A stretch of DNA of 64,000 bases, from positions 806,001 to 870,000 of the forward strand of contig MQVO02000004.1 of NCBI GenBank assembly GCA_001986395.2. Direction: 5' to 3'. Each line of letters starts with the position of its first letter. Position 1 is the stretch's first letter. Positions 31,004 to 51,583 of the stretch are shown in pieces. The position numbers and the translations under genes were made by a program. The notes beneath the pieces are model-generated. The model made no database searches. It was not told where the DNA came from and saw nothing but the letters and a program-made list of their open reading frames with translations. The stretch comes from Irpex lacteus (taxonomy: Eukaryota; Basidiomycota; Agaricomycetes; Polyporales; Irpicaceae).

Positions 31004-31009
31004 AAGAGC
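31004..31009. repeat. Left copy of 6-bp junction repeat AAGAGC
   Basis: This is identical to 51578-51583. Flanking bases differ on both sides (GGT before and AAG after here; GACC before and GTG after on the right), so the shared core is exactly six bases. It is interpreted as the target duplication or crossover core of the element. Confidence 0.6.
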
Positions 31010-31100
31010 AAGGGACCAATGACGTCTGCATATACTTTTCTTTCTTATGGCCACCGACACTAGTACTCTCACCTCATCTCCCACCATACAAGCTCACTAA

Positions 31101-32564
31101 ATGCCCACAGCCCCAGAGAAGGATATTGGTATACTGCGCGCTGCGCGGTATCTCAACCGCTATCTGAAGGACTTTCGCAGCGACGGCTCCGAGACTCACT
31201 CTGAGATTGAGGACCAGATCCGGAAGCTGAAGACGATGATTTCGCAGGAGGCAGAAGACGATAACGAGTCTGAACCTGGTAAGCTGCTTGGAACATGGGG
31301 GCCTAAAGTCATGACACTGATAGAGCATATTACCAGAAAATCGTCCTGCTGCAGTCAAAGGAAAAGCCTGCCCAAGAAAGAGTGTGTCGATAGATGCGGA
31401 GGAGCGTCAGGCTGTGATTAACCCCTGTTCCTCTCAACTCTGTGTCAAGGACTATGTTGTGGCTGATTAGTATCATTGCTAGAAAGCAACGGCTTTAACA
31501 ACACAACGCTTGGACGGCATCCTTTCCCACTTTCAGAAGGACCCGGTCGTTGTGGCAGAGTTAGCGGGAATATTGACAGGTTCATTGACCCGTGACATGC
31601 AGCACGCCGAGGCAGAGGACACTGCTTTGTCGATTCTCTGTCGTGGCTATTCGTTGGAATCATCAAATGATTATGTACGTGGTCACAGTCTGAGTATGCG
31701 AATGAGTATACCTACCCTGCTGATGCCTTCAAGGTTCAAGCAGTCCGTGGATTGTCGTTGGCTGTATTACATGGCTCGAAGCATTGCCAAAACGCCAGAG
31801 ATCGGTCCATCGTTACCGACGCACTAGTTGATCAAAACCGCAGGATTCAGAGCAGGCATGAGGTACTATCCCCCACTTAAGCTTCATGGAATGACAGATC
31901 GTTCACTCAACAATGATAGCATTTGGGCTCTCTTGCAGGACACCTCCAAGCCGGTTCATGGGTTCTGCGAACAGTGCATCAGATTGAAGCTCTCAAGTTC
32001 GCTATAGATTGGCGGGCTTCCACTGCAGATACAAAACGTCGCTTTCATGAAGATGCCTTCTGTGCCCGCGAGGAGGTAAAAGAGCTGGTAGAGAATCTAG
32101 AACCAGATGAGAGAATGGCTCTCCTGCGCAAGGAAGGTGAATTGGTGGACGAGTTTCGCAGGTGGAAGCGTGCCAACGAGCGAGTGGTAACTGGTAGGAA
32201 CCGTCTTTGGATGCTCTATAACCTGGTATGGAGTCTAGTTTCATTCTCAGTCTTGACTAGCCTGCTCAAATGCTGGCAGTTTGGCGCAGCCGTCTTGATC
32301 GATCCCACCTGGAGTGTGGATACTCTGGGAGTGAGGTGCTCTCGCACTTTTGGCCACGTTCTTGAACAGCTGGCTTGCTCTATTCCCAAAGACTTTGACC
32401 CTGCTACTGACACTCATTCTGCACACATGTACCTGGAGCGGTTATACCGGCGTGGCGAATACGCACTGAACTGTATCACTAAAGGCGTATATCCTGAGCC
32501 AGTATTTGGCACGTATCTTGCAGAGTTCCTCGATAGCAACCCGCCTGGCATAGATATCGAATAG
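31101..32564 (+). CDS. Unknown cargo protein at the element's left end
   Basis: Six or seven exons give roughly 420 residues: MPTAPEKDIGILRAARYLN with a charged start, a middle containing RLDGILSHFQKDPVVVAELA and LAVLHGSKHCQNARDR, then SRHEHLGSLAGHLQ, a strongly charged helical stretch (REEVKELVENLEPDERMALL, DEFRRWKRANERVV), and a C-terminal part ending NSNPPGIDIE-like at the stop 32562-32564. The exact joint is GAG|CATTTGGG after an intron with acceptor near 31920. One 39-nt intron near 31444 is short and uncertain. I recognise no family. Helical charged content suggests a structural or DNA/protein-binding role, but this is only an impression. It is the outermost cargo gene, reading into the element. 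Confidence 0.6.
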
Positions 32565-32645
32565 TGGTCATGTAAATATCGAAGTGTATTCATAATTTGA
32601 GGGCATCTCTCTCAGAGGATACCATTGAATGCGTGGTATATGCAC

Positions 32646-32660
32646 CCACGCATTGCGTGG
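32646..32660. repeat. Palindrome CCACGCATTGCGTGG, copy 1
   Basis: A perfect inverted repeat CCACGC-ATT-GCGTGG, preceded by GCAC. Identical copies or near copies are at 38599-38613 and 46198-46212. This copy lies 298 bp upstream of the acidic-tail gene at 32958. Confidence 0.65.
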
Positions 32661-32856
32661 ATGACACTGGCATAAGTACGGGCTGATGCATGGGCTCTAT
32701 TGTAGAGCCTGGAATGTATAGTATAATTAGTTAATGTCAGCGTATCGACAAAATCATGTAGTGCGATGACCTCTAGTAGCTCTAGATGTAGGATTGCATG
32801 TACGCTCGCAATGCAATCAAATTCTATATGCCATGCAAGTCCGGCGCTTGGCGGTC

Positions 32857-32864
32857 TATAAAAG
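32857..32864 (+). promoter_or_regulatory. TATA box of acidic-tail gene 1
   Basis: TATAAAAG lies 94-101 bp upstream of the ATG at 32958, within TCTATAAAAGT, the same context found before the basic-protein gene at 34384. Confidence 0.55.
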
Positions 32865-32957
32865 TAAACGGTGCCGATCCTCTGGTCCGCACGTCTTGCC
32901 TTCTGCGCTCACCTTCATCTTCCTTCACTTCGCACTTTTTCTTTCTTTCTCAATCAG

Positions 32958-34089
32958 ATGTCCCAAACTCCTGCTCGCTCCTCAGTCAACCCAAGCACTG
33001 ACACCATTGCTCCTCCAGCCAACACCGGTGAGTGGACAGCATATAGTCTTATGTTTTGTTCTGTGTTCCAGGTACTGATATCCTTTTTATTGGGGATGAC
33101 CTTAGGTGCTGTCAGTGGAGGCGGTGGAAACGATATCGCTACCGCAGGCCAAGCCCTGCCCCAGGGGGCTGCACCAACTGTTGCTCACGGTGTCAACGGT
33201 GAGTGCATATATGCATGATCTCTTGCGGTTATGAAAACTAACATGGACCACGGTAGCCGCACCTCCCGCTGCACCCCCCGCTGCACCTCCCGCTGTTCCC
33301 GCTGTTCCTCAAGGACTCAATGGTAAGCGCATACATTTAATGTTTCTTGACAGTTTGCAAGATGACAGGGCACACTGTATTCATCTTAGCAGCTGCTCCC
33401 GCAGTCAACGGTCTAGGTCCTCTTATCCAAGGGCCTGCATTGGGTGTCAACGTTGGTGCCAACGGTGAGCGCATACATCCACTCTTTATTGCTGTTGTAC
33501 TCAGTGATCTCGAACTTGGCAGGCATGGGGCCAGCAGTCGTGGGAGGCACGGTATTCCAAGCTTTCCCCGGGCCAGTTTATGCTACGCAATGCAGCCTCA
33601 CCATGGCCAGTAAGGAATCTTGATCTTTTACATACTTGGCGCACTTCTCACTGTCTCAACAGAAATTGTTATGCATCACTGTCCACTGGGAGCTCTATCC
33701 GATAACTCTACTGCTGCCTACCATCGCTACTATACTCCTGGCACTGCGCAGATGGTGAGTGAGAGTATATGGCATTAAAGTATGAATGTGACTTAGGTCA
33801 TCTCAGAATCCTTGGCCTTTTGTTCAGATCAGGGACACGGTGACTGAGGTGTGTCACTGATCTATTATAGCATATATATAGTTCCATGGAGCTGACCATA
33901 CCTTATCTGCAGGCTGTACAGCCCATGCCTGTCACTGCGTATGATCAGGAGGCCGGCAGTGACTCGGGGTATGACACTGACTCTAGCATGCCGTCATTGA
34001 TGGATGTCAACGATACTATTGACTCTGAGGTAGGAAATGATAGTGATGGTGGCGAAAACGAATCTAGTGACAGCTTTGATGACGAATGA
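32958..34089 (+). CDS. Acidic-tail low-complexity cargo protein 1
   Basis: Nine small exons give about 265 residues. It begins MSQTPARSSVNPSTDTIAPP, has a Gly/Ala/Pro-rich middle built on repeats (PPAAPPAAPPAVPAV; GLGPLIQGPALGV), then SLTMAKIVMHHCPLG, YHRYYTPGTAQM and NPWPFVQIRDTVTE, and ends with an acidic Ser/Asp tail (SDSGYDTDSS, DSFDDE). No known domain is seen. The gene at 45011-46030 is a paralog: it shares the exon order, the exon starting with AV before the acidic tail, and the block corresponding to YYTPGTAQM. A TATA box and a palindrome lie upstream. Most introns are phase 1 with clean GTGAG/GTAAG donors. Confidence 0.65.
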
Positions 34090-34309
34090 GCGCCTGTAGT
34101 AGAACTAGAAGTAGCACTGAGTACGATTGCCCGATTAGGAAATTTTGAACTGGACTCTATTGCAGGTTAGATCACATGTAAAATATTGCAGGGATATAGA
34201 AAAAATTGCATTTGCAGCAGATCAGTAGCGTGAATGAAAGAAGGCTAGTAGAGACTGGTGAGCATATGCGGAAATGGCCGGATTATATTCATTAAAGTTC
34301 ATAGAAGTC

Positions 34310-34317
34310 TATAAAAG
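34310..34317 (+). promoter_or_regulatory. TATA box of basic-protein gene
   Basis: TATAAAAG lies 67-74 bp upstream of the ATG at 34384, in the same TCTATAAAAGT context as the box at 32857. Confidence 0.55.
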
Positions 34318-34383
34318 TCAAATCACCTCCTCTTAGCTAAGATCCGTTCCTTACTCCCTTACCACCATCATCTCCCAGGAATT

Positions 34384-34929
34384 ATGCCACCCAAGCGTAA
34401 ATCGACTGACGGAGAATCTGCTCCAGCAAAGAAGGCAAAAGGCAAAGAAAAGGTTGGAGCTGTCAAGAGCGCAATGACAGAAGAGGAATGTAAGCCCATG
34501 TATTCCTCATTCTTAACGTCCCTCTGAAATTTGATTTTAGTAAAAGCCGAAGTACAGGACTACATCTTTGATTACATGGAAGCACTTGCGAGCAGGGTTA
34601 TGCAGGGCAAGCGCAGTGTTGAGCAACCAGGTGCGTATTGCAGGCCACATCGTACACTGCGGCAAAGATTGAACCACATGATGTGTACAGCCGAAAAAAG
34701 CTTAGGAAATCCCATAGATGACTTGACCGGAGATGATAGTGGATTTTTCGAGCATGTCAACCCAACAGACCTCGGTAGGTTTCATATTGTTCAGTTCTCA
34801 GCGCATATACTCAAGCTAATAAAGTTCTTCTGCACACAAAATGAAGTGGCAGCAAGCTCTGCAGGATTTCAGCGTAACGTCTCAGCAGCTGGCCCCTCCA
34901 CCCAGGGCTCTGGTGCAAATTCATTGTGA
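34384..34929 (+). CDS. Small basic cargo protein, probably nuclear
   Basis: Four exons give about 115 residues. The N-terminus MPPKRKSTDGESAPAKKAKG is a strong candidate nuclear-localisation region with two clusters of Lys/Arg. A helical segment follows (LKAEVQDYIFDYMEALASRV), then DDLTGDDSGFFEHVNP and a short S/G-rich end GPSTQGSGANSL. The first intron follows EEE with donor GTAAGC. No family is recognised. It may be a small chromatin or DNA-associated protein, by composition only. It lies between acidic-tail gene 1 and the convergent JmjC gene. Confidence 0.6.
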
Positions 34930-35192
34930 TTATTTCGGTTTCAGATTGTTGTCTCCATAAGTAGTTTCATCAGTGGATCATGTGTATAATAGACAATACA
35001 GCGGTCTCTTCAATGTCCCTGCGTGAGTCGGACATTAGAGTGGGGTGTTGCGCACGAGAGGAAATGGATGGATTAAACAATTAAAGGATAGTTTGTATGT
35101 AGTTTAATTTGGGAAAATGGACATGGTTGACTGGTGCTGGAGTTTGAAACCTTGTATCATGATGAGGAGTATAGGATAATCATCATACTGAA

Positions 35193-38100
35193 TCACAAGC
35201 CTTGGAACGAAGTGAATAGAGATCTCATGTCTGGCACCCCAAGTCGCACTGTACCAGGGTCCCTCCAGTCCTCCCAGTCCTCCCCTTCTCCCAGAGTGGA
35301 CAGCCACTCTAGCTGCGTCAGATCTCTGGGGCGGATGTCGTCCAAAGTCAGGTTGTTGTGCTTGAGGATGGCTTGCACAATCGCCTGAGCAGCAACAAGT
35401 TCCGCAGTGGCTTCGTCACTCTGACTCGCAATCTTCTTGGCATCCACTTGAGGCTCGTCGCCCGGCGCATATAAATGGGCCCATAAGATGCATCGAGCCA
35501 AGGAGACGAAAGGCTTTCGGAGAACTGAACAATGGTGAGTCCGTACATCCGCAAGAGACGTAGTCAAATAATACCTGAATGTTCTGGCCCAAATGCGATA
35601 GCGATGGCCATTCTGCAGAATATGCGTATACATGCCGGATGCGACGCGTTTGTGGCGGATTGGGAGTTGTGGGCTGCGCATGCACGTACAACCTCCGTCA
35701 AGTGCATGGCCTCAAAGAGAAAGAAGTGGCCCCCAGAGAAAATACTGTTCTCTAGGGTATAAACCTGATGTACTAGTCCAGGAGGCTGAATACTATGAAA
35801 CGGGTCAAACTACAGTACTATGAACAAAAAAAAATGCTTACAGAAGTGTTCCCGCCGGAAGGATAATGTTGAACAGCTGGGCATGTTCCTTTATTTCATA
35901 ACACTGGTTTGCATGTGTTACTATGTCGTTGAATCCTTTCATTGCTGCTGCCAAAGTCGAGGGTGCATCCTTTGGTACCAGATAGCTCCATACCTTCAGA
36001 CCAGTCTCACCCTTGACGTAAGTTGCGTACCCGCCGCTATCATAGTGAGGGTACGTAAACGCTCCACTGGATGCTAAAAGAAGCCAGGCCATAGAGCGTA
36101 TAGCGTCGGCCTCCAACTGGTTGAACCCGGCACTGCCGTTCAGATCTTCCAGGCACATGGACAACAGCTCCTCCACAGTCCGCTCTTGTTCGTGTGGGAT
36201 AGAAGGCTCGCCATCGTCTTCAGGTTGCTGATGGTCTGTGGCGGTCTTCTCCGCACCCTTCCGCTTCTTGCCAGATGCTAAGGATGGGTAGACATACCAT
36301 ATGTCAGATGACGGACGTCTGCACAAGTTATTGAATGACATTACCTTTGCCCAAAGAGTTGACACTTGCGGCTGTCTTCGACTTCTTTGGTGGGGGCGCA
36401 CTAGTATCTTGTTCCAGTACACGCTTGGCATTGCGTGTTGTTCTCTTCCGAGTCGCAGTGTCGATAACCTGCGCTTCGTCTGTCCCAGAAGCACTGTATG
36501 CATCTTGTCCTAATGATGAGTTAGCTAGCACTTCGGGGTGTCTGAGTGAACCTACCCTGTGCCCGGTCAAGAAGCCCTGGTGCAGTAGGCGGCTGAGGTG
36601 AAGGCATGGCAGTGCGATGCTGAGAAGGTTCGATGTCAGACTTTGCAAAGTTGACATCGCTCGTTCTCTTCATTGCTTGCAAAGAAGAAGAGAGAGCACT
36701 ATATCAAGTTAGAAGAGGAATAGTCACTGTAAGCCTCAAATCTCACCGAATGATCCAAGGGATCTCTCCTCCATAGTCTGCCATATCCAGGCAGTTCACA
36801 CTATCCTTTGGGTTGGACGCAGCCTTGAGGAACGCCTCAATGGTACCCCATACATTTTTAACGGCTAGCATGATTTCAATAAGCTATGAAGACTGAATAC
36901 AAAAGGTACTCTACTGACCTTCATTCCGTCTCTCGAACTCCTCTGTGTTCAGTGCGGCTGAAAGCGTGAAATAAGCAAATGGTAATAGAGTGATTGATAC
37001 CGAAACACTTACACTGCCATTCTAGAGGTGTGGCGTCCTTGCGTCTGTCCGTCAAGAGAACCAACGACTCCTCATCCCATGTATATCCCGGACCGTCCAC
37101 AACACCCCTCAGGATTGCCACAGCACGTCCACGTGAGAGGATATCCCTGACCTCATCTCGATGTTTTATCCACTCGGAAGATGGCGCTCCTGGTCGCGGG
37201 CTTTGCAACAGAGAGACCATGGGAGTGGGGTTCGCAGGGTCAGATGCGGTGGCATCCTGACCATTTGCCAGCCACTTGATCATGACTACGTCAGAGTGCT
37301 ATAGGAATATCAGCAAAAGCCTAAAATATAGCCTAATCAGTACTCACATCACCTGTCACCTCTGGATCTGGTGGCATGGACGGCAGAAACACCTCCATAC
37401 CATTGGCGAACTTGACGAACCCAATATGCTCCCTATTATCCAGAGGTACCTTGTACTTGTCGAAGGGAATCGGTGAATGCACTGGCTGGGCACTCGTGAC
37501 ACAACCTATTGCTCATGAAATGTCAGGTCCAGTCAGGAGTAGCTCTTGAACGTTGACAATTACAGCTTACCTTCTGTTCCTTCCGACTTACCACGCTCGT
37601 GATCAAATGCAGCGTTGCAAAGCACAATACAGTCTGCTTTAGTGAGATCACGGTATGGCTTGTTGATGGCCTCATGTACTGCTCGGGCACCTTGTCGGGC
37701 GGAAGCTGGGATGGCAGACAGGGGCGGTCCTTCTGCTCATTGTGAGAAATGCACTGGTAGCTATAGAGCGTACACACCTGTAGGTCTCCAGTTTCTACGT
37801 TCCTTTTTGAAAGTTTCATGATTGAGATACCGAAAGTGACCTAGGGTAGACCAGTCCAGTACCCGAAGGCTATCGTAAGGGCATTCATATATCGAGCCCT
37901 TGTTCCAGCTGTTCCAAGTTCCATTGTTGTCCTTCACAAATACGTCCTGCCTCGTGAGCCATAGGTCTCCTGTAAGGCCCAGCGTGGTCATCGGCGTTTG
38001 GTCTGACTGATAGGTCACGAAAAGAGCGGTGGAAGTTTTGCCTGTAGAAGCCAGATGAACACGGTTGGAAGGCCAGTTTTCTGGCTGCTTAATAATGTGG

Positions 38101-38277
38101 TGGTTGATCCAGAATACATGAATGGGAACAGGAGAAGACGAGATTATTTCGCGCTCCTTGGGATCTAAACAGTGATGAGTAGAATCAAGCATATAATTCG
38201 CCCTAGGGCTAAAATATATGCTCACCTAAGGCAATTGCCTCACGAGGATGCCTATCATAGTACACGAACGTGGCCAT
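35193..38277 (-). CDS. JmjC-domain 2-oxoglutarate/Fe(II) dioxygenase (cargo)
   Basis: About twelve exons give roughly 800 residues, from MATFVYYDRHPREAIAL to the stop complement of 35193-35195. The N-terminal 450 residues hold DYGGEIPWIIR and basic, probably nuclear segments (RKRTTRNAKR, PPKKSK). The JmjC fold carries the iron ligands H and D in TYPHYDSGGYATYV and the distal H in PPGLVHQVYTLENS, with the strand GLKVWSYLVP between them and SGGHFFLFEAMH after. All three metal ligands are present, so activity is possible. JmjC enzymes hydroxylate or demethylate proteins, classically histones; the substrate here is unknown. The helical C-terminus includes QSDEATAELVAAQAIVQAIL. Two copies of the GGGTACCCCC-type repeat lie upstream. 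Confidence 0.8.
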
Positions 38278-38336
38278 GCTAAGCCACCGCTATTCTAGGC
38301 AAGGATTGGAAGGCAGTGTTTGCCAGCAAGACGACG

Positions 38337-38419
38337 GGCGCCCAAACCTAGGGGACCCCCCGCCGGCTCTATCAGTCAGAGGCGCCTAAGCACAGGGTAC
38401 CCCCCGCCGGCTCTGTCAG
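38337..38419. repeat. Tandem pair of GGGTACCCCC-type units
   Basis: Two adjacent units of about 44 bp: GGCGCC-N-GGGGACCCCCCGCCGGCTCT-N-TCAGTCAG (core 38351-38375) and GGCGCC-N-GGGTACCCCCCGCCGGCTCT-N-TCAGTCAG (core 38395-38419). Diverged single units are at 44785-44811 and 46154-46176. The pair lies 60-140 bp upstream of the JmjC start codon, a fitting place for a promoter element. Confidence 0.6.
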
Positions 38420-38598: not shown

Positions 38599-38613
38599 CC
38601 ACGCATTGCGTGG
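38599..38613. repeat. Palindrome CCACGCATTGCGTGG, copy 2
   Basis: Identical to 32646-32660, including the preceding GCAC and following three bases (TGG then A). It lies 322 bp upstream of the JmjC start codon and at the left end of the decayed transporter region. Confidence 0.65.
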
Positions 38614-38619
38614 AGGACA

Positions 38620-40900
38620 AAATTACCAGATAGTTCTACGTCAGAGGGGTAGCAACCTTGTTCGACCGCGCCCTCTTCCTCACACTCGCAGGCGACCTCC
38701 CCCCCCCCTCGCGCCCCTCCTCCTCCTCTTCCACCTCCTCAGGCTCCTTCACCCAATTCACCACCCACACACGCTCTTATACGCGCTCAAAAACGGCACG
38801 AGGGGCATAACTGCCATACTTGCCGCCTGGACGACACGTGCGGAAGCGAACATAGCGAATATGGGCCGCCAGAGCGTGTGGGACATGTATGTGCGTGCGG
38901 CCATGGTTTGGAACATCGTCTTGTGGTCGCATGCGCGGTTTAGTGAGAGGGAGTGCAAAGAGGAGAGGGGGAGGGCGCGGAGGAGGGCGAGGAGGGGTCC
39001 CTCGAGTCGGAGGGAGTGGTCGCGCATGAGGGTGTCGGCTACACGCTGCTGCGCAGCAGCGCATCCATCCTACCGTCCGTCACGGACCTTCGCATGCACT
39101 TGGTGCGGTCGCCGTTACATCTTGACCCAATGGATCCACTTCCCGCGACCGGGGTCACGTTGTCGATGACTTGGTCGCAGCCCGGCACCAATGAGGTACG
39201 TTCTGCCTTTGTTAGTAGTTTTAACACCGTCCCCGCCTCCGTTATACGATGCTGGCCGTTCGCGCGCATCATCGACGTCCACGCCACACCTTGACGCCAT
39301 GTATCGACGTCCCGCGACCGGGGTCCCGTCGTCGACAGCTTGGCGATGGTCTCGCACCCGCGCGGTGCGTTTGTACCTTCGTTCATCTTGTATGGACTCC
39401 CGACAAGCCCTCGTGCGTGATTCTATCACCTCCACCACTCGATCCTGGCCTTTCGCATGTCAAGGCCTCCCTTGGGTCTTGATGATATGGATCGCCATCT
39501 GGTCACCGGGGTCGCCTCGTCGACGCCTTAACGATCTTGGACGGGCTCAGGCACGTCGTATCTTCGTCGATCTTGGGTCCACTACTGATGCGCCTCTTGT
39601 AGACGTACACCGTCGTTCTCTTCCTTGTGCGATGTGGTGTGGACCCGCTGGATGCTCTGAGGGAATTCAAAGGTGAGTCAGCCTCTGTTCGAGCATAACG
39701 GAGTGAGTACTCACAGCAATGCAGTGCTACTGCACAGCAGCAGCATCCCTCGCCTCCTGCGGCCTCTCCTTCCTCGTACGGTTGCTCGATGGAGTTCGAG
39801 TCTTGTAGCGGCTTGTGTGGGTCGTATCACGCTCTTATCGATTTCGGCGTCCGCGTGGGACTACTGCAGATATCGTGAGTGTGGTGCGCTTCCATAGAGT
39901 TAAAAACGACTTACTGAATGTGTATTTCGACTTGGAGGGTAATTTGAGGGCAATCCGGGTCGAAGCCGTTTGGGACACTGAATAGCCGTTGTAAGCCATC
40001 TGCGTACTGTAAAGACCCGCATGCATAAGACTCACCAAAACTGCTTTTTGATTATCCAGGGTATGAAACTCCCATACGCAATCGCATACGCAACCATAAT
40101 CGGCACGAACGCCAACCCCGTCTGGGACGGTGAAAACCCCACTGAGAGAATATGGGGCCGTGGGACTCGAGGACGGCCAAGATGAGGGCGTCGGAGAAGC
40201 CGGAGAGGAGGGAGAGGAAGAGGGCGATAGGTTCGGTTAGGAAGATGTAGAAGGGGCGGGACCAGGTTGTTAGGATGTGGTGCGGGTGTTAGCGTTGTGC
40301 GGGAGAGCTTGGAGGTGCTGTAGATGTTTTTGTTGGAGGAGCGAGAAGAGGAGGAGGGGGAGGGAGCGGAGGCGGCGGGCTTCGTGAGTGATGAGGAAGG
40401 AGGTGCGGGTTTTGGGGACGAAGAAGTGGGCGAGTTCGATTGCAGCACCTGCGACGAGTTCGATGTAGAACTACATTCACTTTTGTCAGCGAACGATCCA
40501 CAATCCTCTCCATCAATCAAACAACTCTATCGAACGCACATTCCAATGCCAACTCAAGTTCTCCTGGCTGAAACGACCAAAGATAGGTCCCACAGCGGAG
40601 CCACCAACGGATGAGAGGACGATAAGGGCGACGGCGCATCGCTCGTCGTGTTGTTCCCACATGTCTGCGACCATGCCAAGGGTCACGACCCCCTGCGGAG
40701 GAGAGGCCGCCGAGTGCGCGGCAGACCATGATGCTGGCGAAGTTGGGTGCCAGGGCGCATGGGATTTGCCAAACTTCAAAGTATAATTAGTGGAGGGACT
40801 AATGACAGTGGAGAAGGGACAAACCTACTGAGAGACGACGGCGTTAGCCCGTCTATGGCCAAAGAACGAGCGAGGAGTTCGAGAACGAGGTAGTAATCGA
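38620..40900 (-). pseudogene. Decayed MFS transporter with foreign insertions
   Basis: Reading leftward, clear major-facilitator pieces appear in order: FASIMVCRALGGLSSAGG and then, one base out of frame, VTLGMVADMWEQHDERC and GGSAVGPIFG (40780-40580); YIELVAGAAIELAHFF with VPKTRTSFLITHEARRLR (40500-40380); RPFYIFLTEPIALFLSLLSG with a following ALILAVLESHGPIFSQWGF (40255-40130); and SQTGLAFVPIMVAYAIAYGS (40110-40050). This matches fungal polyamine-type MFS carriers from helix 3 to helix 8. Frameshifts and stops break it, and bases 39118-39800 replace the region where helices 9-11 should be with tandem repeats. A last membrane-like piece and a charged tail (NWVKEPEEVEEEEEG) lie at 38640-38950. 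It is a relic, not a working gene. Confidence 0.65.
39121..39540. repeat. Three diverged tandem units of about 170-190 bp
   Basis: The phrase CTTGA-N-ATGNATC-N-CCCGCGACCGGGGTC followed by a CGTCGAC-like and TTGG stretch recurs at 39121, 39290 and 39478. The second half of each unit (a GGCCNTTCGC stretch) recurs too. The unit lies inside the decayed transporter region. The copies are diverged, so the duplication is not recent. Confidence 0.5.
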
Positions 40901-40933
40901 AGCGGGGAGGTGAGGTTGCGAATGAAGGACGAG

Positions 40934-41183
40934 GATTCTGCGAAGTGTTTAGCCAGTCATGTCACACGGTTGCGCCTGCCGAAAGCTTCAAGACATGAGC
41001 GCGGTTGTGTGGACGACGGCCGCACGCTTCGGGTCAGAAGAGGGGGCCTTGGTAAACGGGGAGCGAGGTCGGCGATTCTGCGAAGTGTTTCGCCCGTCGT
41101 GCCACACGGTTGCGCCTGCCGAAAGCTTCAAGACATGAGCGCGGTTGTGTGGACGATGGCCGCTCACTTCGGCTGAGAAGAGC
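40934..41183. repeat. Two 110-bp direct repeats, period 140 bp
   Basis: Both units begin GATTCTGCGAAGTGTTT (40934 and 41074), share CACACGGTTGCGCCTGCCGA and the stretch through GAGCGCGGTTGTGTGGACGA, and end near CAGAAGAG / GAGAAGAG. They are nearly identical in the middle with about ten differences visible. They sit 40 bp upstream of a TATA box that faces the TET/JBP-like gene, so they may be promoter elements. Confidence 0.6.
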
Positions 41184-41639
41184 GAGGTTGTGGTTTTGCG
41201 CTAACCTTTGAAACCGGCCCTTTATATAGGGCAGAGCTCGACGCGACGCGTTTGTCACGCGTATCTTTGTGACCTGTCGCGTTGGTAACTGTCTTGATGT
41301 TTCTCAAGTGATCATGACCCTGAGCTTCGCGTTCCTGGCTGGTTCGGGCTACACTCACCGGAGGATCTTGAACATTGCCAGCCAAAGTCCACATCACAAG
41401 CGGAACAGTGACTATAGTGCGTTCGGTGAGTGCGTGATTTATCAAACTGAATACAAAAGATACTTTCTATCGCTGACTGATGGTTCTGTTCACTTATTGT
41501 GGCGCATTTTCAGGATCTGCGGGGCATTAGGCCGGTAAGTCCGATGTGACAGCAAAGCAACACTTTTGCACAGTGTTCGCTCACAGCCCGATAGGAAGCA
41601 TTTACAGAACGCTCAGCTAGAATTGTGGAGCATCACCGC
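41184..41639 (+). promoter_or_regulatory. Promoter and 5' leader of the TET/JBP-like gene
   Basis: A TATATA box lies at 41223-41228. Downstream are a short upstream frame (ATGTTTCTCAAGTGA near 41297) and a possible first exon beginning at the ATG of 41314, ending at a GTGAGTG donor near 41417. A possible 21-base exon between acceptor TTTTCAG (near 41512) and donor GTAAGTCC (near 41535) would put a stop in frame with the 41314 start, which is why I prefer the later start. Confidence 0.45.
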
Positions 41640-43852
41640 ATGGACTCCCATAGCGAAGAGGATATTCCTCTTGCTCAGGTGAGTGGTAGTTCTGCTTGTG
41701 AGCGCAGCAGGACCTCCATGGACTTAAAACTGACTGGAAAAGTAGAGTCTGAACAGAAACGTTCGCGTTCTTGGTGCTGCACTGGAGCTTGCCATTGACA
41801 ATGCGTAAGTACTTCTTAACTATGGCTGAACCCGTGGCTATACTCACCTTCATGCTTCTGTCCTCTTTTAGTATGCCTAGAGTAGAACGTTATGCTCTCA
41901 AGGCTAAAGGTTCACTTCAGGAGTGGGCGTTAGCGCATATGCTGCAGGAAGATGAAGACGACACTTGCCAGGATCCTGCCATCGACGAAGCCTATCTTCA
42001 ACTTCTGCGCGAGAAGTGGCATTCTCTCACCCCTGCACGTTTCACAGCAGCTTCAAGTGACTGCAACGCAGACTCTGGCGCTGACACAGGAATTCAGTAT
42101 GGCACATTATTGTGCTATGAGACACATCTGTGAGTTTCTTGTCTACTTTGTTTTGCAAGTTTGCGCTCACCTGTCTCAAGTCCTGGGTCGGCAAATCACC
42201 CTGCTAAGGGCCTGAGCAGCGCCACAGCTACTGCTACAGCCCAGGATGATGTTTCGGAAATGGAGTACCTTGCTCAATATCGGTGAGTTCGCATCCCACC
42301 CTTTGCGATTCTACCCTGTCCACAGATGCTAACTATGAACCAGGAACAAACGGAAAGCAAGCCGGATGGCTAGAGGGCTCAAGCACAAGAAGACTCGCTA
42401 CGACGCTGAGCATTCGGTGCTCATTCAGGCTCAAGAATGGGACATTGCAGATGCTCCCATGAGCTCTGAGGGATGGCAGGGAAAGGATGCCTTGAAAAGA
42501 GAGAGGCTGCGGATCAAGGACGCACTTGAGCGCAAGAGCGCAGAGCTCATGATGATCCTAGCTAGATTCACCCTTGTTTGGTACGATGATAAGTGAGTTT
42601 TGTCTCTGTTCGTCTCTTACCTGGCTTGTTAATAACTATATCCTAGTGCCTGCGCCCCAACCCGTATTGTTGACAGTCAGGGTCGTTTATTCATCTTCCG
42701 TTCAAGAGTTACCCAGTGGCAGAAGGATTGTCTACCCCAGCTTGCATCTGCAATTGAACGCTTTGCTAAGGCAACTCAACAAAGCGTTCAGGATCGGCAG
42801 AAAAACAGAAGGGGCATGCATGAGTTCTGTATAGCTGGTCATGATAGGCAAAGGAAGTCTGTGCGTTCACTTCCTACCTATCCAGTTTGCCTTTCCATAA
42901 TTGCTAATCATCAATGATTCCAGACGCCGACTGTGTCAAGCTGGCAAACACAGCAAGGGCATGAAGAGGCTTTAGATGAGCTCTTCGAGGATACAGCCAT
43001 GTGCAAATTCAAGTACGTTTGCTTACTTCTCTTCCATGGGACAGTTTCACTCACAGCATCATTATTTGTTTTGTCAGTAACTGCGCTACAGCTATGGTGT
43101 GGGAACACTTCCCTGGGGCTGCAAAACGCATGGAGAAGGGCGCAGAAGTGATGAAAAGAAAATACGGTATTTGTACTGGGCGTTTCGGCCTGTTTTTCAA
43201 CTTTTGCATCAATTCTCCTGTCTTCAAGGAGCTTCAATTTGATGTCTTCACTCTGCCCCATAGCGACGCAAAAAACGGTGCGTTGCTGGTATGTGTGGTT
43301 ATGGTATATTACTTCGGGAATTGTGAGTACACTTCTCCTATTGCTCCAAACTTGGCTTACTTTGTTTCTAGGCAAGACAAATGCAGATGAGCGCATCTGG
43401 CTTGTCTTCTGGGAGGCTGGGATCATTGTACAGATTCCAGCTGGGACATTCATTATATATCCCAGCGCTTTGCTTCTCCACTTCAATGTGGACATCAACG
43501 GTAAGCCTTATCTCTTGTTTACTCCTTGTTCTAACTTCTAACTAACACTCTTACATGTCCAGATGTCCTTGTAATCACAAAAGATGGAAGCAAGCCCACC
43601 AAAGACAACAGCATACCATTCCGCCCTTCAAGTGAGGCTAATGGAGGCCGGGGGAGCATAGTCTGGTTCACTCAGGCCAGTATGCTCCAGAGCGCGGAAT
43701 TACCCACTGACACCATCGCACAAGCCAAGCAGCTCAACAAGAAGGCTAAACGCACTGGTGCGGCCTTGATTGACACAGCATATGATGCGCAGAAGGCGCT
43801 TGAAGATGGCATGTTTACCTTCAACACTAATTCGTCTTCATCTGCTAGTTAA
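41640..43852 (+). CDS. TET/JBP-like 2-oxoglutarate/Fe(II) dioxygenase (cargo)
   Basis: About ten exons give roughly 535 residues, starting MDSHSEEDIPLAQ (GCATGG context). The N-terminal half has charged helices and a basic patch (RNKRKASRMARGLKHKKT). The catalytic double-stranded beta-helix follows: GRFGLFFNFCINSP, LPHSDAKNGALLVC with the HxD iron pair, WLVFWEAGIIVQIPAGTF, and YPSALLLHFNVDIN with the distal His. The C-terminal part carries RGSIVWFTQASMLQS. This pattern fits a fungal dioxygenase family that I associate with TET/JBP enzymes, which oxidise methylated or free pyrimidines in DNA; that family is expanded in mushrooms and often tied to DNA transposons. The assignment rests on motif order only. 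An upstream in-frame start at 41314 is possible if exon 1 splices directly to 41608. Confidence 0.6.
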
Positions 43853-44700: not shown

Positions 44701-44784
44701 GTGGAGGAAAGACGGAAGCTCAGAGCACGACGTAGGCGCGCAGCGACCTTTATACATAGTTGGCGACCGAAGCGCTGGACGGCC

Positions 44785-44811: not shown

Positions 44812-45010
44812 AAATCATCAAAATCATGCTCGTTCTTTCCCCTCAATACAACACATTATATCCATCCATATTTGCATTCTGACTTGTACTGATTGTCTAA
44901 TGTAACTATTATTAACATGGCACAAGTGTTATGTCCGTTGACAGTCCATGGTCCCTTCTCATGACAAAACTGCCTAAAAAGGCAGTTGTTGTGATACACC
45001 TCCGGAGTCA

Positions 45011-46030
45011 CTAGTCGCTGTCAGTGCTGAAACCGCTATGAAACCCCTCATCAGATCCCTCCTCGTATTCACTTGAAGTGTTCACCATGCTGTGCATGCT
45101 GTGCACGCTCTCTTCATCACTATCAGGCTCACTGGATTCCTCACTATTGGATGCGGAGTCGGAGAAGTGATCTCCAACATTGGTGACAGCCTGGGGCTAC
45201 GCAGTACTCAGCAATGTTTGACGTTCGAGTTCTTTATTACTTACCTGGATGTGAGTGACCAGGAGGTTTCCATACTGGATGTACTGTAGTGTGAATCAAG
45301 GAAGGTCAGCAGGCTGCATATACTGGTGCATCTCCACTCACCGGCATTGGTGCACTCCCAGTTGGATCGTAGAGCTCAGTTGCAACTCCTGGGCGAGAAT
45401 CGGGCATGTAAACGCTCAATATCATATCTGCTTGTCCTGTCAAGGTCAACCGTGGTGTGATAGTAAGGCAGAGGACTTACAAACAGCTGCTTGCATACGC
45501 GATGCTGCTACCCTGCGATTCCCAACAGGCAGTGACAGAAAATGGAGCACTAGTAGTGGTAAGGACCAGGGTAATGCAATCACAGTGAGTTTTGACTCTT
45601 ACTATCGTTCGCTGAGGCTGAGAGAGGGAGGGGAAGGTGCATGACCAGACCGGATGTCAAAACACCATCTTGATCATTGGCAAATACAAGGGGATTGGTA
45701 CGGTCTTGTGGTGCCAGGGTCTGAGTTGGAGGTTCGTCTGTGGTTAATTTTCCAACATGGCTGAGTATCAGACAATGACCTGAATTGGAAGCAAGCGCAT
45801 ACACACACCTGCATTTTCCGGGAAAGCCACGAGGCCTGCCTCTGAAGCGGGATGATTTGCTGCAAGGGACTCTGCTGTAAATGAACCATCAGCTTTGCCC
45901 GGACACTCGATGTATTATAAACTTGACTATATGCGCACTTACCTGAGGTTGTGAGCAAGACAGCAGTGGCAGCGTGTGTACTTGCATCTTCTTGAGATGC
46001 CCTAGCATTGTCGGTGGACTGGTCAGACAT
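45011..46030 (-). CDS. Acidic-tail low-complexity cargo protein 2
   Basis: Seven or eight short exons give roughly 215 residues. It begins MSDQSTDNARASQEDAS, has ESLAANHPASEAGLVAFPEN and KLTTDEPPTQTLAPQDRTN, then APFSVTACWESQGSS, MILSVYMPDSRPG with ATELYDPTGSAPMP, YIQYGNLLVTHIQ, and ends in an acidic Ser/Asp/Glu tail from AVTNVGDHFSDSAS to GFSTDSD (stop complement of 45011-45013). The exon-by-exon match with the gene at 32958 (same last-exon start AV, same preceding short exon, same type of tail) shows that they are paralogs in inverted orientation at opposite sides of the element. Its function is unknown. A TATATAAG box, a GGGTACCCCC unit and a CCACGC palindrome lie upstream in that order. 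Confidence 0.6.
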
Positions 46031-46126
46031 CAGGAGGCTTGAGAGAAGGAAAGAGGTTTAAGAAGGATAGAAAATAAGGGAGGGTCAATGACCGTTCAAG
46101 ACAAGCAGGGTGCCTCTGAATTGAAA

Positions 46127-46134
46127 CTTATATA
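46127..46134 (-). promoter_or_regulatory. TATA box of acidic-tail gene 2
   Basis: TATATAAG on the minus strand, 97-104 bp upstream of the start at 46030, with a GGGTACCCCC unit 20 bp further upstream. Confidence 0.55.
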
Positions 46135-46153
46135 GACGATTAGGCGCCCATGC

Positions 46154-46176
46154 GGGTACCCCCAGGGGCCTCTGCA
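46154..46176. repeat. GGGTACCCCC-type unit upstream of acidic-tail gene 2
   Basis: GGGTACCCCCAGGGGCCTCT followed by GCA, preceded by GGCGCC as in the tandem pair at 38337-38419. It is 124-146 bp upstream of the start codon at 46030. Confidence 0.6.
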
Positions 46177-46197
46177 AGCCTGAGGTCAAGTGAGCAT

Positions 46198-46212
46198 CCA
46201 CGCATTGTGTGG
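46198..46212. repeat. Palindrome CCACGCATTGTGTGG, copy 3
   Basis: One base differs from the two other copies (GTGTGG for GCGTGG), and it is preceded by GCAT rather than GCAC. It lies between the recombinase stop (46318) and the start of acidic-tail gene 2. Confidence 0.6.
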
Positions 46213-46317
46213 GTTATTTACCGCTGATTGTCGTAAGCCATAATGTCAGTTTCAGCTGACTGGTGCAATTTGTGGGTGGTAAATGATGTTATTTCTCCAG
46301 CTGCAATGGAACATAGC

Positions 46318-49300
46318 CTACAGTCTACTGATGGGCACAAAATAAAACTCTTCAGACTCCCAGGCGCACTCGGACAACTCGCGCAAAACACGGAATGCGG
46401 CCAGCTTGGCCGCGCGAGCATGTTCTGGGAGCTTCCCAGACTAAATGCAAAGGTCACTGCCAGTCCTTCGATGTTCGAAAGGAGCGGACGTACCTCGATA
46501 CGTTCGTTGATCATCTTGGTGATGTCCCAGTTGCGGATATTCAAGACGCCCTCGCGGAGAGCATTTGAGACTTGCTTACTTGTGTCTGCAAATGGGGTGA
46601 TCAGGCGATGAAATGTCTGACTGAGCTAAGGCTACTGACCGTCTGCTTGGTGGATTCTCTCTGAGAGGGTGGTGGGCTTGAGCAAGCAGTCACTAAAGCG
46701 AAGAGTGAAGCACACTTACCATCTTCCTTGATCTCCAGGTTTTTGGGGCGCCTGTTGCGGTTATGGTGGATGGTCACCTCCTGATGAGCGACCTGCATAG
46801 CCTGATACTGCTCCTTGTTTGGGCAGTGTCGGACGAGATGTGGTCTGAGAGACTTCTGGCTACGCTTACTGTTGACCGTAGTGAATCAAGAGCCGCCTTA
46901 TATGCAGAGTGAAATGCACGTACATGACCCCGCATGAGGGGCACTTCCATGTGCCATCCTCTTGGATCAAGTCCAGCTCTAGGTCGTGCCATGGAGTGTG
47001 GATACGCCTGTGACGAATATGTAACAAGAGATCACAGATCAAATGGCAAACACTCACATATGATGCTCTAGCACAGCACGACTAGGGTAGACCCGATCCC
47101 GGTCATCGGAATGCGTAAATTCGACACACTTCGGACAAATCCACTTATTGCCATTTGCCTAGGACAAAAGTCAGTCGTTTCGAACTGGGAAAGGGGACAG
47201 AGAGGGAGTACCTTGAAGAATGCATCAATGACCGCCTGCCTGAGCAAAGGATCTATAATGTAGCGTGCTAGGAAAGCACGTAGGATGGGGCAGGGCAAAC
47301 CGATAACATCCACTTCAGTCGCTGACGGGTCTCCAACATCAGGGACTTCTTCGTCGACTGCAGGTACGCTCGGGTCTTCACTACCAGGCTGATGCACGCT
47401 TTCCTCTACAGCGACATTGGTGGTTGTGTCCGTTGCCGCTAGGTCTGGAACGGCCTTGGAAGAGCGGTCAGAAAGATGAGGTACGCCTGCCTCGTCCATG
47501 AGCCTGTGTAAAATAGCGCTGGGGCCACCCTGGGGAGCAGAGGGCGGCACCTCCCCTGGTGCCTTTGGCATATACGACTCTATGAGAAGCAAGTCATCTG
47601 CCACAGTCAGATCATTTGCAAACGCATACTCTTCTTCGTAATTCCCCGCTCTACCAGCAATGTCCTCGCCTGCACTGATCAAGTTGTTCCTCCAATCGTC
47701 CCAAGCCTGCGCATCAGTTGGCTGGTCCCAGGGTGCGACAAGGGAGTTTGGGTCTACAGGCGCAGCCAAGTGTGGCAACTGAGGCTCCCCCCCTCCCTCG
47801 CGCCCGACGGCCGCACGTCCGGCGGCCACGCCTTCAGCGACCTGGTCATTGGCCGCCTCAGCTGCTGCAAATCGACCCAAATGTTACTGCATCGGGTTAG
47901 ACAGGAGATTCAAGACGGACTTACCAGCAGAAGCCTGAGCCGGAGTCTCAGCGGGCATGTCACTAGAGCTGTTGGCAACTCTAGCTGCTGCAGCAGCCAG
48001 GTGACCTGCCGGACGAGAAGGCGCGCTGGTGGATGCCCGGAGTTGACCCTGGACAGCCTCGGTGATGATCCTTTGCCCCTCGTTGTCAAGAACCACTTGG
48101 GCGTTTTCACGATTCTTGTACGTATTGTGGGCACGACTGCTGCCAAACGCAGGAAGGGTTGGGCCGGACGGGTGGACAGCAGTATCTACTGGGAGAGTCG
48201 CCTTCTGGCGGCGGATGTCCAACTGAGCGAGGGTTATGCCGGCCTTGAGCGCATCTCTGGCCCTCCGGACAACGTTCTTCCGGGTGTTGTTGGCTACAAG
48301 AATGGCTGCGCGGAGGTCGGCGGTATGCTGGGCGATGTGCATTGATGAGACAGTGACAAAGACTGGGAAAGGCGAGCGACAGAGCCTACCTCATCAGTGA
48401 TCTTGGGAGACGTCATGCGACGAGGATAATTTTCCAGAATCCTCTCGATATTAGCGGTAGACCTTGAGTTGGCGTGCTGATAGCCCGTAGCAGCTGAAGG
48501 AAAACAACCGAGAAAGTTTTTCCACTCCGTCTTGACCTCTTCTCGGGCGTCAAACATGCGTTTATAGGTCTGCGTCAAGGACTGTCAGTGAGCGATCGCT
48601 TTCCTTGGATCGGGAACACATACCACGACCTCCAACTGATATGCAAAGGGTAATGTGGTGTTTGCAGAGAACATGTTGGCGATTTCCTCCAGCTGTTCCT
48701 CGGTTGCCGCTCCGGATGTCACCTCCCTGTCTGCTGGTGCCTGCGCCACAACCTGTGTGGGCTGTAGCTGCGGACCGAATTTCAAGTTGACTAGGGCATC
48801 GAGAGCCGGTTTCAAAAAGTTTCGCTGACGGAGTTCAGCCTGGAAGAAAGGACGCATCAGTCCGGAAAGACAACCAGAGGACAAGACGAGCTTTGTCAAA
48901 GACGTCACATACCATTGTGACCTCGTCAGTCCTAGATTGGATTTCGCCGTTGCGGACGGGGACAAAGGCCATCTGGGCAACTCCTACTGCGTAGTACTGG
49001 TCAAAGGTGTTTGACTTTGTACGATTATTGTCCCCAGCGCCCGGGTTTCGGTGGCCCATCGTAGATTGGGCCATAATGACGCCGACCTTTGTAGCATACT
49101 ATCGCAGCCACATTGAGAGGGATTCCCGTAAGCTGTATATTCAAGGAAGAACTCACGTCATTCCCACCGTCCCTGCGAAAGGCGTACATTGATGCGGGTG
49201 GTAGGCCTGCTCCCACTGCTGCATTTGTGACAGCGTGGGAGAGGGCCACAGGAGTTGCCGCTTTGCCAGGGACAAGGTCATGCCCTCCCTGGGTAGCGGC

Positions 49301-50985
49301 TAGAAAGCTAAGGGATAATGGTGAGCGTTCAGCACGCAAGTGAGATGACAGAGGCTCACAAAGGCTCATCACGCTTCTCATGGACCACCTCCAATGTTGC
49401 AAGCTCGCACGTTTCCAGGTCTTCTAGGGTCTAAGAGTGGTGGTCAGGGCGTTCAGGTGATCAAGCAAGACGGCAAGCAAGACTCGGCGCAACTCACCTT
49501 GTATTGGGGGCCAAACGCGCCACGGTATAGCATGTAGGTGATGAACCATACGGTCGGATCAACGATAACGTTGTGAGACATGGTGACAGAGTCCAGGAGG
49601 AACTCTCGAGCAGTTGCGTTGTGGATGAGATATTGTCCCTGCCGGGGTGTGAGAGTTGTGTACGCAAGCCGGAGAGAACGGAGAGGACTGACCTTCCAGG
49701 CCTTGACGGTAACGGAGAGTTGACATCCCCAGAGACCCCGGATGAGGTGCAGCTTGATGTCGCCGAGGGTCAAGAGCTGAGATGGATTAGCGGTGAGACC
49801 AGTCTGACCAGGAGAGTGCTTCGCTTACCAGTCCACGCTTGAGCATGTCTTCGTTGAAGGGAGCCAGAGACCCTGGGCGGGATAGAATATAGTAGCAGAG
49901 CATTAGGAGACAAGCTAACTGCATTTTGACCAGGCGCTCGTTGCCTGCGCCGTTCTCAGAGGACTTCAGGAGCCAGGAGAGCATGAGGAGAAGCTCCCAT
50001 CTGCCGTAGTAGATCTTCTTGTTTTGAAACCTGCAGAGGTTGTTCGTTATGATCACTATATGCGTGCAAAGTGCATCAGCAGGGGACTGCAGAGAGAACA
50101 GTCGAAAACTGACCGTTGGTGACCATGGCACGGATGGAGGCATGGAGTCTCTGCTGGATGAGGACGGCGGTGCCGTCGGGATTGCCGTTCGCGTCGCGAG
50201 AGTATCGAATGATACCTTTGATGAGAATGGTGGACCAATTGAAGACGGTCACCGCGCGGACCATTCCTCCATTACGCCCATGGACCATATGGACCTAGCA
50301 ACCACGGTGGAGAAGGTCAGAGGTGATGTGGGAGTGGTAGAGAACGCATACACTTACCCTCATGGCAATGAACGTGGTGGCGAAGTGGTTCACCCACCAC
50401 GACTCCCAGAGCTCTTTGTCTGTTAGGTCTGGTTCCTCCTCTCTCGAGAGTGTAGCCCAGTCACGAATCAATGCTTTGATCGCGAGTTCAAGACGGTGAT
50501 GCTGGGGGGGAGGGTTCTTGCGGTTGGCCTCGGCTTCAGCGTGAGCTCTTTGACGGATGAGGTCGAAAGCGCCGCTCTCTTTGTGACGAGCGACGAGCTG
50601 TGCGGTGCGTGTGTTGGCCAGGTGTTCGTATTCCATCGTGTTTACCTCATACTGGGGGTTCCACTTCGTGAGTCCTCTGGCCTTGACCTGAGCCAGGCGG
50701 CTGAGGGGCGGTGGCCTAGGTACCGGCTCTGAGAATGGGCACCGTCAGAGGGCGATTGACTGTTATTGGAGCGCACGACATACCTGGCAGGCGCCTGTCG
50801 ACCTCATTGGCAACACTCTCGCGAGTTGGTTCCAAGTTGACCGGGTTGTCGTCTTCGTCATGATCTGGGGGGAAGGGAATATTAGTCTGCGCTGTAGTCT
50901 GCACTGTCGAGGCAAGGGTAGGGAACGCACAATGACCCCCAACAGGACGACGTCCAGTGCTGGGGTTTCCCTCTGGAGGGGGCAT
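46318..50985 (-). CDS. Captain-like tyrosine recombinase with C-terminal zinc fingers
   Basis: About twenty exons give roughly 1190 residues, starting MPPPEGNPSTGRRPVGGH at 50985 and ending EEFYFVPISRL. The recombinase fold spans about residues 230-500: box I Arg in CYYILSRPGSLAPF, a candidate beta-hairpin Lys in VTVKAWK, box II in SMYAFRRDGGND, the His of QSTMGHRNPGAG, and the Tyr nucleophile in FDQYYAVGV. This order (R...K...YxxRR...GH...Y) and the YYILSRPGSL segment fit DUF3435-type recombinases (Starship captains) and Crypton recombinases. An Ala-rich and acidic linker follows, then zinc-finger-like units near residues 990-1090: CPKC with HHM-RRIH, and WKCPSCGVM with RPHLVRHC. It should catalyse excision and integration of the element. 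Introns are 50-66 nt with clear branch sites. It lies just inside the element's right end, reading inward. Confidence 0.82.
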
Positions 50986-51577
50986 GGCAGGAGTGGGAGT
51001 TGAGGGGAAGAAGGAGGTGAGGGAGAGAAGACGGTCCTGCCTGGGTTTTTATACGCAGGAGGAGGGGAGGAGCAGGCAGAGGCATGATATCGTGCCTGGT
51101 CCGTGCGCGCGTTGTGGGTCGAGGAGGTGTGCATTATGTGGCGACGGACGCGTCGCTGCGTCTGTGGACGCGTCGACGCGACTGTGGCCACAGAGGCACA
51201 GAGGGCGATTCTTCTCCGGAGAGGCGGGCCGTCATCACGCGTCATTCATCTTGCAAGGCTGGACTGGTTTGGCAGGAGCCAGCTGGCAGGTACACTGAGT
51301 GACTGAGCCAAGCATCACAGAGACAGAATGGGTGTCACCTTGTTCTGAGAGTACTTGGGAGTAGTTTCGTGCACTGTGGTGGACAACGAAAGAAATAAAG
51401 GGGGACACGTACAGGGGCTGTCAGTTTGTACCAGTGATAGAGGAGGCGAGCGGAGGGTGATCCGGAAAAACGGTTGTCGGGTTTCCCCGAGTGTTGCCGG
51501 CCACGTTGACCGTGTGAGTTTGTTACCCGTTTAGGTCAGGCGCCGGGGTGTGGGACTCGAACATGGCTAATTTGACC
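50986..51577. promoter_or_regulatory. Recombinase promoter and right terminal region of the element
   Basis: A minus-strand TATAAAAAC box (complement of 51045-51053) lies about 60-68 bp upstream of the recombinase start. The sequence GGACGCGTCG occurs twice (51146-51155 and 51166-51175), partly as GCGAC...GTCGC and CGCGTCGACGCG palindromes. The last 30 bases carry GGGACTCGAAC (51552-51562), which mirrors the tRNA T-arm GTTCGAATCCC just outside the element. Confidence 0.5.
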
Positions 51578-51583
51578 AAGAGC
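51578..51583. repeat. Right copy of 6-bp junction repeat AAGAGC
   Basis: Matches 31004-31009. It directly abuts the T-stem GTGGG of the 3' tRNA half, so it would belong to the variable-arm end of the uninterrupted tRNA. Confidence 0.6.

Follow-up and report, generated by a model that had tools for sequence, protein, structure and literature searches.

Introduction

Bacterial and archaeal genomic islands and integrative elements that lie at transfer RNA (tRNA) genes carry a tyrosine recombinase and use the tRNA gene as their attachment site, leaving a displaced tRNA 3' end at the far junction and, in some cases, a whole tRNA. Here we describe a block of about 20.6 kb, at positions 31004 to 51583 of a 64-kb stretch of the genome of the basidiomycete Irpex lacteus (contig MQVO02000004.1, positions 806,001 to 870,000; hereafter the window), which is probably a captain-type element integrated into a tRNA-Leu(AAG) gene and has two probable relatives, one at a tRNA-Pro and one at a tRNA-Lys gene. 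The family to which it belongs resembles the tRNA-associated islands in its recombinase, its tRNA target, its displaced 3' end and the tRNA that is sometimes whole; it differs in being eukaryotic, in having introns in both the captain-like gene and the tRNA, in breaking the tRNA at the variable loop and in showing no evidence of transfer between cells.

Dada transposons use a DDE transposase. They insert into tRNA and small nuclear RNA genes (PMC8869645); no DDE transposase was recognised in the window, where no search was aimed at one. Starships, described from the Pezizomycotina, are elements of 15-700 kb with a recombinase, the captain, as their first gene (PMC12289983; PMC12134995), and some of them insert into and break up the gene for 5S ribosomal RNA, itself a small RNA encoded in many copies (PMC12153272). 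A 2026 paper that used Starfish reported eight Starships, 42-606 kb long, from the basidiomycete Tremella fuciformis (PMC13066641). Cryptons, whose first known examples came from a basidiomycete and several pathogenic fungi, have terminal direct repeats of 4-6 bp and neither terminal inverted nor long direct repeats (PMC3212892). Neither the Tremella paper (PMC13066641) nor the Crypton paper (PMC3212892) contains the word tRNA in its main text. No report of tRNA-gene targeting by captain-type elements was recognised in searches of open-licence papers other than preprints.

Starships with 5S ribosomal DNA (rDNA) targets, such as Osiris of the Enterprise family, share with the window's block a recombinase as the first gene inside one end, reading inward, short target-derived direct repeats and other genes behind the recombinase. 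The present family differs from Starships in targeting tRNA genes, in its basidiomycete host, in a DUF3435 score below the cut-off, in its ends, where no terminal inverted repeats were found, and in its size (7-20.6 kb against 15-700 kb; PMC12289983). With the Tremella elements it shares the claim of a captain element in a basidiomycete, and it is far smaller (20.6 kb for the window's block against 42-606 kb; PMC13066641). An earlier note on this DNA, which proposed a Starship-like element, presented it as a possible extension of Starship biology to another phylum; given the Tremella report, this claim is not a new one. CryptonF elements are likewise recombinase DNA transposons with terminal direct repeats of 4-6 bp (PMC3212892), from which the window's protein differs in that its weak match is to DUF3435.

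Halves of a tRNA-Leu gene on either side of the block

The genome searched comprises 44.3 Mb in 317 contigs, and tRNA comparisons were made with paralogous intact tRNA genes of the same genome, whose locations are given as C1, C6 and so on. The two ends of the block are formed by the following features:

30930-31003, plus strand: 5' half of a tRNA-Leu(AAG) gene with intron, ending after AATCTGGT in the variable arm; its 38-nucleotide start has 1 mismatch against the intact genes
31004-31009, plus strand: left copy of the direct repeat AAGAGC, a putative crossover core, read from the sequence
51578-51583, plus strand: right copy of AAGAGC, read from the sequence
51584-51608, plus strand: 3' half of the tRNA-Leu gene, with T-arm, 3' acceptor strand and the next base; no other T-arm of the 64-kb window has a perfect stem

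As a boundary marker, AAGAGC alone was ruled out, its frequency being that of chance (43 copies in the window against 37.1 expected from dinucleotide shuffles). The two AAGAGC sites are taken as the boundary because the tRNA-Leu 5' half ends at 31003 and the 3' half begins at 51584, and the block between AAGAGC repeats that the earlier note had delimited is thereby borne out. A search of the genome with the joined halves gave nine matches in total: the two halves in the window, four intact tRNA-Leu(AAG) genes (C54, C58, C20 and C124), an additional 5' half at C54, and two tRNA-Leu genes of another anticodon on C1. The flanking halves, which might have proved to belong to unrelated tRNAs, both align to the same tRNA-Leu(AAG) genes. 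Furthermore, the acceptor strands of the window (GGTGAGA/TCTCATG) pair at all but the outermost position, while the four intact paralogues have GGCGAGA/TCTCGTC; the halves therefore fit each other better than any intact copy.

When the flanks are joined at AAGAGC, ARAGORN at its default setting recognises a tRNA, which it miscalls as Thr(agt). The same miscall is made for three of the four intact tRNA-Leu(AAG) genes (C54, C58 and C20), and the fourth, at C124, is called Leu. At the default setting no tRNA is found in the whole window, in the left flank alone or in the right flank alone. A passenger tRNA-Leu inside the element was considered and rejected, since only matches of 10-16 bases were found.

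No terminal inverted repeat was found: when the outermost 60 bp at one end were compared with the reverse complement of those at the other, they had no word of at least 5 bases in common, and among the 25 longest of 29 inverted repeats, the one nearest to both ends is a 16-nucleotide pair at 31176/51145, which is not terminal. Two family-based searches were of little help at these loci. Rfam gave no match on the window and six loci, even at intact tRNAs found by ARAGORN, which is not evidence of absence, and a tRNA family search of the genome scored 63 of 2461 candidates, none at the tRNA-Leu places, so that tRNAs were not enumerable in this way.

A captain-like gene inside the right end

At the right end the first gene of the block starts 593 bp inside the boundary and reads inward, in agreement with the earlier note:

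50985-46318, minus strand: captain-like tyrosine recombinase gene of 20 exons and 1199 codons with no stop, recognised from the gene model, the match of a piece to Pfam DUF3435, and motifs common to the paralogues at C6 and C1

All 19 introns are of the GT...AG type and 27-73 nucleotides long; the first, at 27 nucleotides, is doubtful, and the N-terminus is uncertain. The predicted protein contains, in this order, the motifs RPGSL, FRRDGGND, GHRN and TFDQYY, an arrangement which, read by eye, we take to be that expected for the Arg, Arg, His and Tyr of tyrosine recombinases. Zinc-finger-like motifs lie near its C-terminus. Pfam DUF3435 (PF11917) matches a 216-amino-acid piece with an E-value of 1.5e-5 and 24.5 bits, just under the curated cut-off of 25.8, and scores 21.3 and 23 bits on two longer pieces. 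It is the only recombinase-type family listed for the window's pieces (E-values 1.5e-5 to 1.5e-4), where HMMER filters drop most weak matches. The Crypton-type recombinase domain, which we take to be Pfam DUF3504, is absent among the Pfam matches listed for the recombinase pieces, a list from which weak matches are mostly filtered and for which the presence of the model in the Pfam copy was unchecked.

Over 142 codons in three exon stretches, the window gene and its C6 paralogue differ at 34, 14 and 80 first, second and third codon positions, respectively, and the captain-like protein has therefore been under purifying selection. A search with the full-length protein gave no match among 7994 scored candidates. 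A profile search gave two among 7996, one identical to a 118-amino-acid open reading frame (ORF) of the window, and the other a 103-amino-acid relative with the RPGSL motif, on a 741-base contig, which has no Pfam match. The DUF3435 family search of the genome itself yielded nothing, but its control matched nowhere either, so that the result is uninformative. A profile search of solved structures (PDB) returned five matches, all named Cake, presumably designed proteins, which were dismissed as spurious.

Related loci at tRNA-Pro and tRNA-Lys genes

The captain-like gene is not alone in this genome. Among the best candidates scored, a search with the window protein found, besides itself, C6:424.8-425.7k and C1:315.7k, and a search with the C1 protein found the same three loci only. 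In tblastn, the similarity to C1 and C6 covers the greater part of the gene, with its motifs and C-terminal region, and in tblastx the C1 and C6 stretches share with the window essentially the captain-like gene.

The C1 locus has its captain-like gene enclosed by the halves of a tRNA-Pro(TGG) gene on the minus strand, the 3' half at 311181-311205 and the 5' half from 321091, 9.9 kb apart. The first 36 bases of the 5' half are identical to an intact tRNA-Pro at 31 of 36 positions, a match of which 2.9e-9 would be expected by chance in the 140 kb searched at equal base frequencies, and the acceptor strands GGGCCAA/TTGGCCC are fully complementary. An intact tRNA-Pro lies within this 9.9-kb stretch, on the opposite strand. 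The C6 locus (C6:422.8-429.9k) has a degenerate T-arm of tRNA-Lys type some 1 kb ahead of its captain-like gene and on the other strand; beyond the gene, 7 kb away and on the strand of the degenerate T-arm, stands an intact tRNA-Lys. Over 38 bp, the C6 end, GTCTATTTTGCTTCATTCC followed by the T-arm, matches at 92% one unit of the T-arm array that follows tRNA-Lys at C58, and 19 of these base pairs are outside the T-arm region.

The three loci have a common polarity: in each of them the start of the captain-like gene is the end closer to the displaced tRNA 3' piece, and the gene points away from that piece. A single tRNA gene accounts for both junctions in the window (Leu) and at C1 (Pro), and C6 has only one clear junction. 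The genome thus probably contains a small family, and each of the three members found has a different tRNA family, Leu, Pro or Lys, at its captain-side end. These related genes at other tRNA families go beyond what the earlier note described, and the case for the block as an element is stronger than that note stated.

The right terminus and displaced tRNA ends

Next to the displaced tRNA-Leu 3' half, the block ends in a sequence that recurs elsewhere in the genome:

51533-51577, plus strand: right terminus of 45 bp, also found by sequence matches before displaced tRNA-Leu 3' halves at C54, C58 and C20
51550-51562, minus strand: 13-mer within the right terminus that resembles a reversed T-arm, agreeing with the T-arm of the target at 12 of 13 bases by sequence comparison

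The terminus holds the reversed T-arm GTGGGA(C/T)TCGAAC, 25 bp ahead of the GTTCGAATCCCAC that belongs to the window's target itself. The captain-side ends of the window, C1 and C6 align on this reversed T-arm-like motif; the 9-mer CCTAGGGAC is common to the C1 and C6 ends, and the reversed motif of C1, CCGGGATTTGAACC, once reverse-complemented, is identical to part of the T-arm in a tRNA-Pro at C308.

At C54, C58 and C20 the 45-bp terminus lies just downstream of an intact tRNA-Leu, and the 3' half that follows is degenerate at C20. C54 and C58 are alike over about 354 bp at 93.5%, spanning the terminus and the intact tRNA-Leu, and their flanks are unrelated. The C54 copy forms an insert of about 350 bp (C54:777160-777575), in which a whole tRNA-Leu lies between the GGTGAGA-type 5' half and the TCTCATC 3' half of a split tRNA-Leu, and it breaks that tRNA at the same base as in the window, after AATCTGGT. 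We read the three terminus copies as mini-inserts or scars, and the displaced tRNA 3' ends that adjoin intact tRNA-Leu and tRNA-Lys genes have the look of older scars.

Both strands of 291,850 bases, without overlapping loci and one stretch of 251 bases, were scanned for T-arms that have five pairs, G-T counting as a pair, and close with G-C; the stretches, chosen for tRNA or captain matches, are not a random sample. Twenty T-arms pass, 11 in intact tRNAs (including a tRNA-Cys that ARAGORN detected) and nine displaced, with none unaccounted for. The only one with a perfect stem in the window sits at 51584, the end of the block.

Some further observations concern displaced tRNA pieces in general. 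At C58:505.1-505.6k, an intact tRNA-Lys is followed by a T-arm array, with seven T-arm-like copies (at most two mismatches) including the tRNA's own, in steps of 146, 62, 62, 62, 52 and 55 bp, and the intron of this tRNA-Lys carries a reversed T-arm-like stretch. The tRNA-Lys loci at C62 and C185 have, by their coordinates only, an extra 3' piece about 180 bp downstream. At C124:158598-158614, a displaced tRNA-Leu 3' end lies about 180 bp past the intact tRNA-Leu and lacks the 45-bp terminus; it is perhaps the scar of another element. A match of C187 to the tRNA-Lys T-arm was set aside as not tRNA-like.

Other contents of the block

Behind the captain-like gene lie cargo-like genes, short repeats and GC-rich broken frames, much as the earlier note had described them:

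31101-32564, plus strand: left-end multi-exon gene, start placed by eye, no Pfam match
32646-32660, unstranded: near-palindrome CCACGCATTGCGTGG of 15 bp, copy 1, upstream of a cargo gene
32960-34089, plus strand: acidic low-complexity cargo gene b1, recognised by eye
34384-34929, plus strand: small gene predicted from an ORF, no Pfam match
35193-38280, minus strand: multi-exon gene with a JmjC-like stretch (Pfam JmjC_2, E-value 0.027, 14.4 bits against a cut-off of 22)
38599-38613, unstranded: near-palindrome, copy 2, from the sequence
38606-41200, unstranded: GC-rich broken frames with duplicated segments, possible gene relics (three ORFs, no Pfam match)
41640-43852, plus strand: multi-exon gene, 2-oxoglutarate dioxygenase-like by eye, no Pfam match
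45011-46030, minus strand: acidic low-complexity cargo gene b2, from reading the sequence, similar to b1 in composition by eye only
46198-46212, unstranded: near-palindrome, copy 3, with 1 mismatch, upstream of b2, from the sequence

Among the ORFs of the element that were tried as cargo, Pfam gave no family over its cut-off. Repeats of the GGGTACCCCC type with GGCTCT-CAG occur near cargo gene starts, at 38351, 38395, 44787 and 46154. Outside the block, at 52100-54420, two adjacent short-chain dehydrogenase genes appear by eye to be a tandem duplication, and the second of them has a Pfam match.

These contents bear on a reading in which the captain element is real but small and has been swollen by nested repeats, for instance a dioxygenase-like unit, with little or no true cargo. 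Relatives of the dioxygenase-like gene occur at nine other genomic places, one of them marginal (27 matches including the window's own), and two pairs of these have identical best scores (C187/C181 and C37/C308); the gene family is possibly a mobile unit of its own or lies on duplicated contigs, and the window's gene is possibly a nested repeat rather than true cargo. C1 and C6 are, moreover, too short for much cargo. On the other hand, no second copy of the left-end gene was found in the genome, both matches being the gene itself. At no more than one mismatch the near-palindrome gives five strand matches at three sites in the window, against 0.01 expected from dinucleotide shuffles, and it has no site in the other 228 kb of the 292 kb scanned; the block contains all three sites, of which two precede the acidic genes, as if several genes shared a regulatory unit, and it is possible that the near-palindrome is such a shared regulatory site. 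On this evidence a swollen element is a serious alternative, which we nevertheless regard as somewhat improbable.

Weighing the alternatives

A second alternative is a Crypton-type recombinase transposon, outside the captain lineage, that gathered neighbouring repeats. The 6-bp AAGAGC repeats and the window ends, at which no terminal inverted repeats were found, accord with the Crypton pattern of 4-6-bp terminal direct repeats without terminal inverted or long direct repeats (PMC3212892), as does the small size of C1 and C6 (7-10 kb). However, DUF3435 is the only recombinase-type family listed for the window's pieces, an argument that is not strong, given the filtering of weak matches, and the block spans 20.6 kb with several genes. 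A Crypton origin appears unlikely. Least of all do we favour a rearrangement at tRNA loci, in which an ancestral 45-bp spacer and an extra 3' half belonged to the tRNA-Leu loci, an ordinary rearrangement separated the 5' half and the captain-like gene is incidental: such a spacer and 3' half do stand beside intact tRNA-Leu genes at C54, C58 and C20, and the T-arm tandem array after tRNA-Lys at C58 means that tRNA 3' ends multiply in this genome, yet the captain-like genes near displaced pieces of other tRNA families at C1 and C6, with the same polarity, the terminus motif common to the window, C1 and C6, and the same-base break after AATCTGGT at C54 and in the window would all be left unexplained, and we regard it as improbable.

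Several results weigh against an integrated captain-type element. As regards the recombinase, Pfam gives no DUF3435 match on the full 1199 amino acids or on pieces of the C1 and C6 paralogues, and no recombinase came out of the profile search of solved structures; the identification draws on motifs read by eye and on the sub-threshold DUF3435 match. As regards the target, a lowered ARAGORN threshold gives long, odd tRNA calls on the separate flanks too. The joined gene is four bases (CCGA) shorter in the variable arm than the intact genes, and its outermost acceptor pair is mismatched; the empty site would therefore not be an exact intact tRNA-Leu. As regards the related loci, the core at C1 could not be fixed, and no direct repeat was fixed at C1 or C6. 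The displaced T-arm of C6 is degenerate and has no acceptor match, and both loci are short (about 9.9 kb and 7 kb). Finally, the sequence at the left junction is not the same in the window and in the C54 mini-insert, C58 and C20 have no 5' half within 10 kb on either side or in the genome search, and the 45-bp terminus beside intact tRNA-Leu genes could be an old feature of the tRNA locus and not element DNA.

The captain-type element in tRNA-Leu(AAG) remains the reading that we consider probable: the split tRNAs, the captain-like genes, their common polarity and the common terminus motif are all observed. Of the Starship-like element proposed in the earlier note, a recombinase-bearing block whose flanks are the halves of one tRNA is supported, and Starship identity is not established. 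The element works like a small Starship, but membership is unproven and the name is not earned, because the DUF3435 match falls just short of the cut-off, no terminal inverted repeats (an optional feature) were found and both relatives are short.

A possible route of integration

The arrangement of the three loci suggests how such an element might integrate. An excised, circular form would bring the attachment site, its captain-side end carrying the reversed T-arm-like sequence, which may serve as a binding site for the recombinase. The recombinase would bring this site together with the variable region and T-arm in a tRNA gene, and strand exchange, presumably by tyrosine recombinase chemistry, would take place at a short core, AAGAGC in the window. 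The 5' part of the tRNA would then stay at the far end and the displaced 3' part would come to lie next to the captain; the tRNA would be left whole at C6 (tRNA-Lys) and split in the window and at C1. Later excision or internal loss would leave displaced tRNA 3' ends as scars, and members of the family may still be mobile.

In a wider sense, the family could be a eukaryotic counterpart of the tRNA-integrating islands. It would attach at the variable loop and T-arm and switch between Leu, Pro and Lys targets by way of a reversed target T-arm borne on the captain side. Some of its members would retain or bring along a whole tRNA (tRNA-Pro in C1, tRNA-Lys at C6 and tRNA-Leu in the C54 mini-insert), and the stacked 3' ends would serve as a fossil record. 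For this fuller picture we see the chances as evenly balanced.

Implications for captain-type elements

If this reading is true, captain-type recombinases reach past 5S rDNA to tRNA genes, a conserved multicopy landing site as for bacterial islands. Split tRNAs and displaced T-arms would then offer a simple way to find such elements and their exact ends in any fungal genome from sequence only, without an empty strain. Furthermore, with three related recombinase-like genes and three tRNA sites in one genome, the choice of target by captains becomes testable.

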